This document shows positions 17,993 to 34,558 of a DNA stretch of 64,000 nt, piece by piece. Numbering within the stretch: the stretch's first letter is position 1; the number at the start of each line of letters is the position of its first letter. Location: assembly GCF_000317085.1 (NCBI RefSeq), contig NC_019702.1, positions 3,440,394 to 3,504,393 on the forward strand, in the 5' to 3' direction. The notes beneath the pieces are model-generated. The model was not told where the DNA came from. It made no database searches and saw only the letters and a program-made list of their open reading frames with translations. The translations under genes and the position numbers were made by a program. Origin of the DNA: Synechococcus sp. PCC 7502. Its GTDB lineage: Bacteria; Cyanobacteriota; Cyanobacteriia; Pseudanabaenales; Pseudanabaenaceae.

Positions 17993-20233
17993 TTAGACAT
18001 GCAATTTTGAATCAGTATGAAAATTTCTTAGCCTCAAAGCATTTGTGACTACTGAAAGAGAACTAAGTGCCATCGCCCCACCCGCCACAATGGGATTAAG
18101 CAGCCAGCCCCAGATCGGATAGAGAATCCCAGCCGCAATCGGAATCCCTGCCACATTGTAGATAAAAGCGAAAAAGAGATTTTGTTGAATATTACTAATC
18201 GTGGCTCGACTAAGTTGAATCGCCGTCACTATCCCCTGTAAATCTCCTGAAATTAGGGTAATATCACTCGCTGCGATCGCCACATCAGTACCTGTACCAA
18301 TTGCCAAACCCACATCCGCCTGAGCCAAAGCGGGAGCATCATTAATGCCATCACCCACCATTGCGACAACTTTACCTTCAGCTTGTAATTCTCTGATTTT
18401 TTCCACTTTTTGATCGGGACGTACCCCCGCAAATACCCGTCTGATTCCGACTTCACGGGCGATCGCCTCGGCAGTAGATTGATTATCACCAGTCAACATT
18501 ACCACTTCTATTTTCATCTTTTGTAAAGTATTAACTACACTCTGAGATGAGGATTTAAGTTTGTCCGCAATCCCAATCAGACCCTGAGCGATACCATTGA
18601 CCGCAATTAAAACCACAGTTTTACCACCTGTTTCCCAAGAGTCTTGATATTCATATAACTCACTCGTATCAATCTTTAACTCATCCAACCATCGTCTTGT
18701 GCCAATTTGGACTAAGAAGTTATCGACTTTTCCTTGCACTCCACTACCTGTGATCGCCATAAAATCAGTTGCTGCAGGAATAGGAATATCTTTCTGTTTA
18801 GCATGATTAACAATAGCTTCAGCCAAAGGATGCTCGGAATTACGTTCGATCGCTGCTACAAGTTTTAATAATTGATCATCATTCTTATTCACAGAGAATA
18901 TATCTGTCACAACTGGCTTGCCTTCCGTTAGTGTCCCCGTTTTATCTAAAACAATCGTTTGAATTTTATGAGCGAGTTCTAAACTAGCAGCATCCTTAAT
19001 TAAAATTCCGTTCTCTGCACCTTTCCCAGTCCCAACCATAATCGAAGTCGGAGCTGCTAAACCCAAAGCGCAGGGACAGGCAATAATCAGCACCCCTACT
19101 GCCGAAATCGTTGCCAGAGTAACATTACCCATAATCTCAAACCAGATCACAAATGTAGCGATCGCAATGGAAATAACCACAGGTACAAACCAACCTGTTA
19201 CCTGATCTGCCAGTCTCTGAATTGGGGCTTTAGAACCCTGAGCATCCTTTACCAGTTGCACAATTTGTGAAAGTACAGAATCTTTACCGATATGACTAGC
19301 TTTAATTTGTAAGCTCCCAGATTTATTCATAGTTGCCCCAATTAAGCGATCGCCCACTTTTTTCTCAACAGGAATACTTTCGCCCGTCACCATCGACTCA
19401 TCAACGGTAGAATTACCTGCGATCGCCTCTCCATCCACAGGGATTTTCTCCCCTGGACGCACTAAAACCACATCACCAATGATCACATCTTCTATGGGAA
19501 TATCTGACTCCTTCCCATCTCTGATTACTCTGGCAGTTTTTGCCTGCAATCCTATTAACTTCCGAATTGCCTCCGATGTTTCCCCCTTTGCCTGATTCTC
19601 AAATAATTTACCCAAAAGGATTAAAGTGATTACAACTACCGAAACTTCATAGTAAACTTCAGGCTGTAGTCCTTGAGAGATAAAGAAATTAGGATTAAGT
19701 GTAACTGTGATCGAGTAAGAGAATGCTGCGAGCGTTCCCAAGCCAATCAGCGTATCCATGGTCGCTGTGTGATTTTTAAATGCTTTCCATGCTCCAATGT
19801 AAAATGAACTCCCACACCACAACTGTACAGGTAGAGCAAGGGCAAGCTGGAGCCAAGGATTATGCAGCCAGTCAGGAATTATGGGAATAGATAACCCTGT
19901 CATCATAGAAATCGAACCAATTACCAAAATTATGCCAATTACGCCACCCACCCAAACTTTACGGGTCAGATCTTGAGTTTCTTGCAGTCGAGTTTTTTTA
20001 TCAGCATCTTCATTTACTTGATCTGGCAGAATTGCTTCATAGCCAATATCTGCGATCACTTTTTGAATAGCCGCAGGACTGGTTTTTTGAGGGTCATATT
20101 CGATCGCTACTTCTTCGGTCGCAAAATTAACATTGCTACTACTGACACCAGATATAGAGCGAGTTGCAGTTTCAATACTACTGGTACAACCAGCACATCG
20201 CATTCCTTTTAAATTAAGCGTGACTTTACTCAT
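17993..20233 (-). CDS. Copper-type P1B ATPase (CopA/PacS/CtaA family)
   Basis: The 746-residue pump has one N-terminal HMA domain with GMRCAGC (Cys13, Cys16), eight expected membrane helices, TGES (283-286) in the actuator domain, the CPC metal site (386-388), the phosphorylated Asp430 in [20 protein letters not shown] and [23 protein letters not shown] with a CxxC HMA domain indicates Cu(I) transport. Cyanobacteria have two such pumps, CtaA (cell membrane) and PacS (thylakoid), which together feed plastocyanin and cytochrome oxidase; I cannot tell which one this is. The upstream region (20234-20350) holds a restriction-gene fragment rather than a recognisable regulator. Confidence 0.93.
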
Positions 20234-20265: not shown

Positions 20266-20345
20266 CATCATTATCACTTCTCAATTGTCTAGGTTTTCTC
20301 TCCTTGTTCTGACTTCTTGGGTAATCTTTTCTTGAATGCTGACTT
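20266..20345 (-). pseudogene. HsdS-like C-terminal tail remnant, copy A (frameshifted)
   Basis: On the minus strand this stretch reads SIQEKITQEVRTRRE and, after a one-base frameshift, ARQLRSD. The same sequence, intact, is in copy B at 20821-20958 (IQEKIAKEVRTRREKARQLR). The pattern of Arg/Glu-rich helix followed by RQLRSDAE is typical of the last helix of type I restriction specificity subunits (HsdS). The family call is from pattern memory. It lies between the copper ATPase and HicA. Confidence 0.6.
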
Positions 20346-20354
20346 TATCTTTAA

Positions 20355-20576
20355 TCAAATTTCAAATAAGGATCGGGGAAGACTTGACTGTCTGATGATC
20401 GATTGAAGTGTACCGATCTTGATTTCTGAATAGTTAGGGATGGGAACTGTAATAGTAGAGTCATCAGTTTTCTTTTGCATAATGATATGACTTCCTCGCT
20501 GTCTAACCTGAGTAAAGCCATTTGCACTTAAAATTTGACAGAGTTCCTTTGCTGAAAGTACTCGTAGTTTACCCAA
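20355..20576 (-). CDS. hicA: HicA-family mRNA interferase toxin
   Basis: The 73-residue protein shows the HicA double-stranded-RNA-binding-like fold: LSAKELCQILSANGFTQVRQ, the catalytic-His motif RGSHIIMQK, and VPIPNYSEIKIGTLQSIIRQ. HicA cleaves mRNA and is held inactive by HicB. Its start overlaps the end of the HicB gene by eight bases (20569-20576), the antitoxin-first order common in cyanobacteria. The gene is complete and the catalytic His is present. Confidence 0.88.
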   Translation of the reverse strand: MGKLRVLSAKELCQILSANGFTQVRQRGSHIIMQKKTDDSTITVPIPNYSEIKIGTLQSIIRQSSLPRSLFEI

Positions 20577-20796
20577 CTGCTACCTCAATTTGAGTTATGT
20601 ATATTTCTGAATACATTCTTGCTTCTAACTCATTTGGGCTTGCCATTTCAAAGAATAGCTCGATCGCCTCAACCAGATTATTTCTTGCTTCTTCAACCGA
20701 TTCGCCTTGGCTGGCAATATCTATCTGTGGGCAAAGGGATACATAACCATCATTTTCACGCTCAATAATGCAAGTTAGCTGTTTGATTTGTTTCAT
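20569..20796 (-). CDS. hicB: HicB-family antitoxin
   Basis: The 75-residue protein matches the partial RNase-H fold of short HicB antitoxins: LTCIIERENDGYVSLCPQID, then GESVEEARNNLVEAIELFFE. It should bind and neutralise the HicA encoded immediately downstream, and it lacks a separate C-terminal DNA-binding domain. Its ATG at 20796 is only 24 bases after the stop of HsdS-like fragment copy B, suggesting that the pair sits at a junction of rearrangement. Confidence 0.86.
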   Translation of the reverse strand: MKQIKQLTCIIERENDGYVSLCPQIDIASQGESVEEARNNLVEAIELFFEMASPNELEARMYSEIYITQIEVAVG

Positions 20797-20820
20797 ATAA
20801 TTTAGTTGTTTTTTCTTATT

Positions 20821-20958
20821 TTACTCATCACTCAACAACTTGAACTCAAATCTTTGCTTTGCCTCTTCCCATTGGCTTTCTGCATCACTTCTCAATTGTC
20901 TGGCTTTTTCTCTCCTAGTTCTCACTTCTTTGGCGATCTTTTCTTGAATAGCGATCAA
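20821..20958 (-). pseudogene. HsdS-like C-terminal tail remnant, copy B (longest)
   Basis: The minus strand reads an uninterrupted run of about 45 codons ending in TAA at 20821: IQEKIAKEVRTRREKARQLR, SDAESQWEEAKQRFEF and KLLSDE. This is the amphipathic tail pattern seen at the end of type I restriction specificity subunits (AExxWxxAKxRFExxLL). No start or upstream S-subunit domain is present; the PemK/MazF gene ends at 20955, three bases into it. Copy A matches its first half and copy C its last third. Confidence 0.6.
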
Positions 20959-21293
20959 CTAATCTTAATAATTTGTTGTAGAGAACTTTTTAACGTCTGA
21001 ATATCTGGTGTTTCTAATTTGCCAAGTTTTTTAAGTACAAGAGATTTCTCCAGAGTTGTGATGATTGGCTTGATTACTGAGGGCTTAATCAGTCCTGCTC
21101 TTGACCAATCAGATATAAGCATCTCACCAAATTGCAAACTTACTTGACTGGTGACAGCAATTAAAATTATGTCTAGTTTCTGCTGATTATAAATATCGGA
21201 ACTGATTACAATGGTTGGGCGTTTTTTGGTGGTGGTTTGATCCGTAAAAGGGAACGGAACTAAAAGCACATCTCCAAAACTATAGGTTGTCAT
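20955..21293 (-). CDS. PemK/MazF-family endoribonuclease toxin
   Basis: From the ATG at 21293 the protein has 112 residues: YSFGDVLLVPFPFTDQTTTK, KRPTIVISSDIYNQ and DIILIAVTSQVS are classical PemK/MazF features, including the FPFTD loop and the RP-x-VVIS-like strand. The frame is open 38 codons further upstream but this part overlaps the antitoxin gene and is not conserved-looking. The start overlaps the antitoxin by 14 bases, so the pair is translationally coupled. It should cleave single-stranded mRNA when free of its antitoxin. Confidence 0.88.
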   Translation of the reverse strand: MTTYSFGDVLLVPFPFTDQTTTKKRPTIVISSDIYNQQKLDIILIAVTSQVSLQFGEMLISDWSRAGLIKPSVIKPIITTLEKSLVLKKLGKLETPDIQTLKSSLQQIIKIS

Positions 21294-21495
21294 AAGCTGC
21301 ATCTTCAGGATTATCCCATATTTTTGAAAAACTGTTTTCAGAGAGTTTAGTAGCTTCATAAACCAGATTTTTATCAGATTCGGTTTCACGTTGATAGAGA
21401 AAATCAACGAAGTCTTCTATTTCTATGATTTTATCGGATGGGAGTTTGCGAATCTTTTCTAGTAATCTTTGCTCAACTGTAATGCTGTTATTCAC
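21280..21495 (-). CDS. Antitoxin partner of the PemK/MazF toxin
   Basis: A 71-residue acidic protein (MNNSITVEQRLLEKIRKLPS, then EIEDFVDFLYQRETESD) resembling DUF2281-type antitoxins: an N-terminal segment with LxKIRxLPxDKxxEIxDFVDFL followed by a flexible toxin-binding tail. It precedes and overlaps the toxin gene (21280-21293). The ATG at 21495 lies 30 bases from HsdS-like fragment copy C. The identification rests mainly on the motif and on the neighbouring toxin. Confidence 0.8.
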   Translation of the reverse strand: MNNSITVEQRLLEKIRKLPSDKIIEIEDFVDFLYQRETESDKNLVYEATKLSENSFSKIWDNPEDAAYDNL

Positions 21496-21525
21496 TTTTT
21501 TAGTCTCCTAATTTAATACTTAATT

Positions 21526-21580
21526 TTACTCTTCACTCAACAACTTGCGCTGAAATCTTTGCTTTGCCTCTGCTTGGGGA
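21526..21580 (-). pseudogene. HsdS-like C-terminal tail remnant, copy C (3' end only)
   Basis: The minus strand reads QAEAKQRFQRKLLSEE and TAA at 21526, clearly homologous to the end of copy B (EEAKQRFEFKLLSDE). At DNA level both share a long run starting TTACTC.TCACTCAACAACTTG on the plus strand. It lies just downstream of the large restriction-methylation gene, whose stop is at 21590, but is not in its reading frame. Confidence 0.55.
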
Positions 21581-26330: not shown

Positions 26331-26639
26331 GTGCAAATTGGCTATCAGCGTTTAACCGAGATTCAAGAAGAGATTCTCTGGCTATGCGAAGCTGCTCATG
26401 TGCCAGTGATCTGGGCAACTCAAGTGTTAGAAAGTTTAGTCAAAAATGGCACTCCTTCCCGTGGAGAGATGACTGATGCGGCAATGGCAGAACGGGCTGA
26501 ATGTGTGATGTTAAATAAAGGAGCTTTTGTGGGTAAAGCGATCGCTATTCTCAATGATGTGCTCACGCGCATGGAATCCCATCAATTAAAAAAACGCCCC
26601 AGTTGCGAGCACTCCATTCTTGGTAGTTGTTTGGGCTAG
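26331..26639 (+). pseudogene. Truncated pyruvate-kinase-like gene, C-terminal part
   Basis: The frame reads GYQRLTEIQEEILWLCEAAH, VPVIWATQVLESLVKNGTPS, RGEMTDAAMAERAECVMLNK and ends soon after. This matches the end of the pyruvate-kinase-type barrel of the cyanobacterial family with IWATQVLE and RAECVMLNKG. A full enzyme needs several hundred residues; here the N-terminal part is absent and the GTG at 26331 is only the first possible start. The last 93 bases recur at 27828-27920. Almost certainly a non-functional fragment. Confidence 0.72.
26536..26628 (+). repeat. Direct repeat, left copy (end of pyruvate-kinase-like fragment)
   Basis: These 93 bases match 27828-27920 with about four to five mismatches, offset by exactly 1292 bases. 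They cover codons reading AIAILNDVLTRMESHQLKKR and PSCEH. The pair brackets the secreted-protein gene at 26828. Confidence 0.88.
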
Positions 26640-27589: not shown

Positions 27590-28003
27590 ATATTTATGCT
27601 ATCCCATTGATGTTAATCGTTCAAAATCTTTTTGCCAATCGCTTCTCCAGAAATATCAAGTTCATATCAATCGGCACACCCGTTGCTAGTTCTAGGGCTG
27701 TTACTTCCTCTGGAAAGTTCTTCTACTTCTAATGGTTTGACATCAGAGGCACAATAAGCTGATCGCAAGTCGGTAGCAGGATGAAATTGCATAACTAACT
27801 AGACCAAATTATTAGTTGTATTCTAGCAAGCGATCGCTATTCTCGATGATGTGCTCACGCGCATGGAATCCCATCAATTAAAAAAACGCCCCAGTTGCGA
27901 GCACTACATTCATGGTAATTCTCTTAACTGAGTACTGGTTTAACTGAGTACTGGTTTCACTCTTGCCGTAGATTATTTGTAGTTCTGTTTTCTAGATTTG
28001 ATA
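27590..28003. other. Intergenic stretch with gene debris
   Basis: No intact gene. On the minus strand about 27650-27795 there is protein-like sequence starting MQFHPATDLRSAYCASDVKP and, after a frameshift, VTALELATGVPID, possibly the decayed end of a phosphoglycerate-mutase-like gene (weak). From 27828 the second copy of the pyruvate-kinase-like fragment follows. A short direct repeat of AACTGAGTACTGGTTT occurs near 27926-27958. Confidence 0.45.
27828..27920 (+). repeat. Direct repeat, right copy (pyruvate-kinase-like fragment)
   Basis: Second copy of 26536-26628. It reads AIAILDDVLTRMESHQLKKR then PSCEHYIHGNSLN and a stop. No upstream coding sequence is attached, so this copy is a pure fragment left by a duplication or rearrangement. 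Confidence 0.88.
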
Positions 28004-34129: not shown

Positions 34130-34185
34130 TTAGGGTAAGATACTGAGTATAAACATTACTGGGTTCTCTAGTAACGATGATCAGT
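34130..34185 (+). repeat. Duplicated clpS leader, upstream copy
   Basis: From TTAGGGTAAGATA to the end CTAGTAACGATGATCAGT, this block matches 34502-34558, the leader and first three codons of the clpS gene at 34550. Here the copied ATG (34177) opens only MISKF and a stop. The middle is less conserved than the two ends. Confidence 0.8.
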
Positions 34186-34230: not shown

Positions 34231-34440
34231 ATGACTTATGAAGAAATGCAGGCAGTAATAGCCCAGATGTTAGCAATAGAGAGGCAACTACAAGAGAGAC
34301 AGTTACAGCACTCTGAAAACTTTGCACGAATAGAAGAGAGACAGGATAGAACGCAGTCACAACTAGAAACACTGGTAATGATAGTATCCAGATTTGTTGG
34401 CGCAACCAATACCAGATTGGACAAGCTAGAGGACAAGTAA
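34231..34440 (+). CDS. Small coiled-coil protein
   Basis: A 69-residue Gln/Glu-rich helical protein (MTYEEMQAVIAQMLAIERQL, then RQLQHSENFARIEERQDRTQ) that ends in ATNTRLDKLEDK, predicted to be one long coiled coil. Similar small proteins are common hypotheticals in filamentous cyanobacteria, sometimes with transposon or toxin contexts. It lies between the two copies of the clpS leader, so it may have been inserted there. No function known. Confidence 0.6.
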   Translation: MTYEEMQAVIAQMLAIERQLQERQLQHSENFARIEERQDRTQSQLETLVMIVSRFVGATNTRLDKLEDK

Positions 34441-34501: not shown

Positions 34502-34558
34502 TTAGGGTAAGATAACTGTATATAATCCGTACTGTCTTGCCTAGTAACGATGATCAGT
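34502..34558 (+). repeat. clpS leader, functional copy
   Basis: Downstream copy of the block at 34130-34185. It runs into the clpS start codon at 34550 (ATGATCAGT). Conservation of TTAGGGTAAGAT at the left and TAGTAACGATGATCAGT at the right suggests a duplicated promoter/leader region. Confidence 0.8.

Follow-up and report, generated by a model that had tools for sequence, protein, structure and literature searches.

A stretch of 64,000 nt from Synechococcus sp. PCC 7502 (NC_019702.1, assembly GCF_000317085.1; hereafter the window) carries the 3' end of hsdS, the gene for a type I restriction specificity subunit, in three incomplete copies that alternate with two unrelated toxin-antitoxin (TA) modules. 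We propose that this tail-TA-tail-TA-tail array probably originated from at least two serial, homology-anchored insertions of TA modules at the 3' end of hsdS, and that the body of the gene was lost later. DNA stretches examined outside the window, in the same genome or in relatives, are labelled with L-numbers.

On the minus strand, the locus reads type ISP-like gene, fragment C, DUF2281-PemK, fragment B, HicB-HicA, fragment A and copA (Table 1). Positions and Pfam families agree with the earlier sequence-only reading, which had placed HicBA between A and B and the PemK pair between B and C. HicA was assigned by its Pfam family, and its overlapping HicB-like partner matches only below threshold; the second module consists of a PemK/MazF toxin with an upstream, overlapping antitoxin, the same DUF2281-PemK pair as in relatives. 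Fragment C lies 15-18 nt past the stop of the type ISP-like gene, and the gap from the end of C or B to the next antitoxin is 24-30 nt in each case, hicB starting about 24 nt past the stop codon of tail B. Homology of the DUF2281-PemK DNA to four related TA modules spans 20967-21507 and stops just short of B. The shared TA sequence thus occupies almost the entire interval from C to B, and the insert is therefore a bare TA module.

Table 1. Features of the array and its flanking genes, in window coordinates
Feature	Position	Strand	Assignment and context	Identity
copA, copper-type P-type ATPase gene	17993..20233	-	abuts fragment A	87% in DNA to a copA-like paralogue in the same genome (L002)
Fragment A	20273..20337	-	5' part of HsdS tail (IQEKITQEVRTRRE...), frameshifted, shortened before copA	89-92% in DNA to B
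HicA toxin, 73 aa	20355..20576	-	PF07927, E 9.6e-18; ends about 12 nt ahead of fragment A	
HicB-like antitoxin, 75 aa	20569..20796	-	PF15919 sub-threshold, E 0.0085; overlaps hicA	
Fragment B	20818..20957	-	complete HsdS C-terminal tail (IAIQEKIAKEVRTRREKARQLRSDAESQWEEAKQRFEFKLLSDE, then stop); begins at mazF stop codon	
PemK/MazF toxin, 113 aa	20955..21296	-	PF02452, E 1.3e-13	
DUF2281 protein, 71 aa, presumed antitoxin	21280..21495	-	PF10047; same PemK pairing in relatives	
Fragment C	21523..21571	-	final 49 nt of HsdS tail (...EAKQRFQRKLLSEE, then stop)	92% to B
Single-chain type ISP-like/IIG-like restriction-methylation enzyme, 1053 aa	21590..24751	-	PF18135 Type_ISP_C, E 7e-96; PF02384 N6_Mtase	

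The Type_ISP_C and N6_Mtase domains bear out the claim that a single-chain restriction enzyme adjoins the array. Pfam detected no helicase family, and hence no ATPase/translocase domain, over its 1053 aa, and the predicted architecture looks closer to type IIG. In relatives, orthologues of this gene stand among TA genes of diverse kinds, including MNT/HEPN, RelBE-like, VapBC-like and PIN. One of them, at L052 4948-5352, also among TA genes, has been reduced to its start and end by an internal deletion.

The three fragments had been described as homologous pieces of one tail, all on the minus strand, with A matching only the first part of B and C only the last. DNA-level alignment, which had been proposed as a check, confirmed them as copies at about 90-92% identity. 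A repeat search found that B and C form a 49-nt direct repeat (20818-20866 and 21523-21571, 92% identical), and that A and B share one block of 44 nt (20294-20337 and 20906-20949, 89%) and another of 25 nt (20273-20297 and 20884-20908, 92%), giving about 90% identity overall. Local alignment scores were 89 for A-B and 78 for C-B, far above the shuffle maxima of 34 and 35 (500 shuffles each); no alignment was obtained between A and C. The fragments had thus been correctly located, with outer limits drawn slightly too wide; C begins at about 21573. An extension of A to 20238 was dropped, since the sequence as far as about 20254 is shared with the leader of the copA paralogue. Fragment B is an unbroken frame of 45 aa. 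Fragment A, with a 1-nt gap and stops, is therefore not an open tail, and C retains only the last 14-15 codons. To within a few nt, A and B have the same starting point in the tail, though they are joined to two different toxins. The divergence of 8-11% between the copies is equally compatible with a recent and an old origin.

Comparison with protein families confirmed, at the level of sequence, that A, B and C derive from the C-terminal ~44 residues of HsdS, the type I specificity subunit. A search of 58 relatives, later widened to about 390 genomes of the class, showed that all good matches to B are C-termini of HsdS-like frames (41-60% identical), as the earlier reading of an HsdS-like tail had anticipated and its proposed search with translated fragments has now established. 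The matched frames are 316-490 aa long, apart from a single frameshifted one. Both matched proteins whose domains were tested belong to Methylase_S (PF01420), and B is 51-60% identical to C-termini of Methylase_S proteins over 42-44 aa. A further scan of genome contigs yielded no match with the single tail; with the tail alignment it returned HsdS-like genes only, namely four HsdS genes, none directly followed by TA genes. The two objections raised in advance, an unrelated family and a likeness limited to low-complexity helix sequence, were both examined and neither applies: the matches are confined to HsdS, and the shuffles rule out chance similarity.

The hsdS body is indeed gone, since sensitive tblastn with four HsdS proteins detected neither the body nor target recognition domains (PF01420) anywhere in the window. 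Other hsdS genes exist elsewhere in the genome, in which no further copy of the tail was found. Plasmid records gave no match to the tail or the array, and no empty site, intact hsdS or donor for the window locus was found in the same genome, the roughly 390 class genomes, the plasmid records or the genome contigs.

An analogous locus on another contig of the same genome (C1) indicates how such a junction may have formed. At L053 (2350-6531, compared with L213 and L214), a TA insert located at the stop of hsdM separates this gene from hsdS, and a second copy of its final 49 bp lies downstream of the insert. The Dolichospermum plasmid NZ_CP043059.1 (L213) carries the same hsdM-hsdS pair with the genes overlapping and no insert, and thus represents the empty site; near the junction it is 93% identical to L053. 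The downstream copy of the hsdM end is native, agreeing with Dolichospermum. In the upstream copy, the final ~25 bases (...FLVKLGYLN, then stop) have diagnostic bases in common with Planktothrix plasmids (...FLVKLGYVS, then stop), where a related antitoxin follows an orphan hsdM tail and hsdM itself is missing. The upstream copy is therefore a chimera, as judged from a few diagnostic positions within ~25 nt. The foreign end on this copy, resembling the orphan tail of the antitoxin, argues that homology was used there. The simplest reading of these sequences is that hsdM tail and TA module came in together, with homology in the tail serving one side and an illegitimate join the other, and it agrees with homology-facilitated illegitimate recombination (PMC3240628).

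We then asked how common such repeats are at TA loci. The survey covered 60 loci of the order (30 HicA and 30 PemK, the index locus included) and counted direct repeats of 35-250 bp that bracket the toxin with a gap of 350-900 bp. Such repeats tightly bracket the toxin in 16 of the 60 loci. The controls gave 7/340 for random slices of relatives, 5/680 for slices of the same genome and 2/166 for mismatched halves, and none of the 60 loci has its toxin bracketed by inverted repeats. After related loci were merged the count was 15/47 (p 2e-10). Some of these repeats are minisatellites or attC-like, so that 16/60 overstates target duplications; removal of low-complexity, minisatellite, terminator, paralogue-motif and attC-like cases left 11/47 (p 5e-7). 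Direct repeats are thus strongly enriched at TA loci, beyond the case in the window.

The closest parallel is L166, where the last 106 bp of a gene, including the stop and four more bases, flank a DUF2281-PemK pair; the copies are 91% identical, with the pair plus one gene between them. At L071, the end of a glycosyltransferase gene stands on either side of a DUF2281-PemK pair, and at L063 a stretch of 124 bp stands on either side of a DUF433/DUF5615 pair. Arrays recur as well: L131 (MNT/HEPN and HicAB), L173 (PemK and PIN) and L182 (DUF433/DUF5615 and DUF4160/DUF2442) each contain at least three copies of one repeat together with different TA modules, and the repeat differs between all of these loci and the window. 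L182 was also considered as an empty-site case and discarded, its repeat having turned out to be a dispersed family.

Two further kinds of repeat were seen in relatives. A 42-bp repeat, GCGATCGCCCTTTACTTTCACAGAGATTAAAGAGGCGATCGC, separates consecutive TA or defence-like genes, its copies all pointing the same way, with seven of them at L239 (1537-5530) and others at L182, L240, L241, L242, L243, L244, L245, L247 and L248; a genome typically has one or two such loci. The repeat folds as a hairpin of 14 bp carrying a single bulged base (z about -6.5), and its arrays look like cassette arrays without a known integrase. L192 and L172 contain arrays of about 430 to 740 bp with the cores GCCTAAC/GCATAAC and GTTATGC, like integron attC sites. 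With respect to repeat boundaries, a perfect HIP1 octamer, GCGATCGC, occurs within 10 bp of 21 of the 58 edges of 29 repeat pairs versus 1.7 expected, a count based on BLAST edges and open to bias from them; examples are L173, L182, L126, L158 and window position 26536, and the repeats concerned are mainly intergenic. As a general boundary, HIP1 was rejected: it holds for many intergenic repeats and fails for the hsdS case.

Duplicated gene ends also surround other cargo. Within the window, 93 bp of a pyruvate-kinase-like 3' end (26536-26628 and 27828-27920, 96% identical) enclose an insert of 1.2 kb whose single gene, of 253 aa, has no Pfam match, and a 57-bp direct repeat (34130-34185 and 34502-34558, 82%), which looks like a duplicated gene start, surrounds a small gene (34231-34440) directly before a clpS-like gene. 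An 800-kb sample of the same genome added the pyc 5' end duplicated around a DUF29 gene (L089 13978-14665), a phoH-like 3' end duplicated around three small genes (L102 696-3593) and the cobQ 5' end duplicated around two genes (L117 4568-6950), the neighbours of the last not being syntenic in relatives. The process is therefore not limited to TA modules, and duplicated ends are far more frequent at TA loci than around other cargo.

By analogy with L053, we infer the same origin for the window, with HsdS in place of HsdM and two such insertions in succession; the order of the steps and any involvement of RecA or natural transformation are likewise deduced. The DUF2281/PemK and HicBA modules probably carried a 3'-end piece of the restriction gene that they had followed. 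This incoming tail would pair and recombine with the resident tail, and the other end would join illegitimately just inside the resident tail. Homologous pairing on one side and an illegitimate join on the other would thereby duplicate the tail, the resident gene and its downstream neighbour presumably being intact when the module entered. Afterwards, the hsdS body next to the type ISP-like gene would have disappeared, leaving C with the tail end only, and A may have been cut where copA was joined. One observation does not fit easily: A and B share their start at two toxins, which independent illegitimate joins would not lead one to expect. Either one already truncated tail could have been copied with its cassette, or a preferred position could exist. 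The sequence-only reading had offered TA insertion at the end of hsdS and recombination through it as equal options. Entry beside such tails stands, given the repeat enrichment and the empty site and chimeric junction at hsdM, but the two options need not be kept apart, since the data favour a single process that combines homologous pairing in the tail at one end with an illegitimate join at the opposite end.

The same product would result from a classical long target duplication, in which a break-and-fill event copied 50-140 bp of the hsdS tail around incoming DNA without tail homology, as described for restriction-modification genes of Helicobacter pylori (PMC1643837, PMC3874152). Non-TA inserts between duplicated ends (the pyruvate-kinase-like case and L089, L102 and L117) speak for it as well. 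However, it leaves two inserts at one tail position as a coincidence, and at hsdM the end of one copy is foreign and similar to the orphan tail that accompanies an antitoxin; we regard this explanation as rather unlikely. That same orphan tail, found with the antitoxin and without hsdM on Planktothrix plasmids, would suit ready-made cassettes, in which the tail is a leader in front of a TA module once located behind hsdS, perhaps supplying a promoter and a ribosome site, and the whole block was acquired from elsewhere in a single transfer. In both complete cases a tail does precede the antitoxin, and the start point is common to A and B. Yet a related block is absent from plasmids and the sampled relatives, a promoter as the cause of tail retention was rejected because 5 promoter-like sites against 4.6 expected are no excess, and the first formation of the array would be left unexplained, which makes this origin improbable.

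The alternation of modules and repeats resembles a cassette array, and the separate hairpin repeat family of relatives forms such arrays, which would suit tails acting as site-specific recombination sites of an integron-like system. But an attC-like hairpin was ruled out by folding, tail B folding worse than its shuffles (z +1.2 and +1.5), and the repeat is coding HsdS sequence and varies by locus; such a system is very improbable here. Three independently decayed hsdS genes in a row are barely credible, even in a genome with hsdS genes elsewhere: A, B and C are ~90% identical in DNA versus ~60% protein identity for the nearest HsdS tails elsewhere, and the window has no body fragments.

Serial, homology-anchored insertion hence remains our preferred reading of the window. 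As a tentative extension, TA modules of these cyanobacteria might behave as transposase-free cassettes defined by a shared repeat, whereby the acquired end of the gene in front of a module, or a small repeat bounded by GCGATCGC, becomes a re-usable docking site. Such a site could then accumulate modules of different TA families; the arrays in the window, L131, L173 and L182 and the one with seven repeats in L239 would be examples.

It has long been asked how chromosomal TA modules can move in the absence of a mobile element. Insertion with long target duplication was reportedly proposed 25 years ago for restriction-modification genes, its mechanism being said to be unsettled. The same duplication signature has now been measured around TA modules with controls, and one case, hsdM, points to homology in the tail of the neighbouring restriction gene. 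Its empty site and chimeric junction make the mechanism testable in naturally transformable cyanobacteria. The pattern suggests how "selfish" TA modules enter behind genes without breaking them, and a duplicated end of a neighbouring gene provides a simple marker for finding recent TA acquisitions.

Taken together, the window represents a variant of an already known type of gene insertion, with a mechanism better documented at the hsdM analogue than in the window itself. Target duplications of ~100 bp around restriction-modification genes in H. pylori are described in PMC1643837 and PMC3874152; these two papers and PMC3031569 cite Nobusato et al. 2000 for insertion with long target duplication. 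As in those accounts, a block without transposase lies between direct target duplications of ~100 bp, often beside restriction-modification genes, and the window has direct repeats of ~50-150 bp around an insert without a transposase. Unlike in those accounts, the cargo is a TA module, two modules entered one target serially, and one copy in the hsdM analogue is a donor-recipient chimera. Type I restriction-modification loci with TA modules between or behind hsdM and hsdS have the TA genes in the same position, as does the L053 operon, whereas the window lacks hsdM, hsdR and the hsdS body and has a type ISP-like enzyme in front. Integron cassette arrays similarly consist of successive small modules, often TA, each beside a repeat copy, but the repeat here is an HsdS coding tail without a foldable attC. 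For the type VI secretion effector-immunity arrays of Vibrio cholerae, a model of homology-facilitated illegitimate recombination has been put forward (PMC5361080): a conserved stretch anchors the module at one end, an illegitimate join attaches the opposite end, and repeated events of this kind build arrays with displaced 3' ends, as proposed here. The outcome differs in that the V. cholerae events displace effector genes, whereas the array in the window gains TA pairs behind a restriction gene, together with extra copies of that gene's tail.
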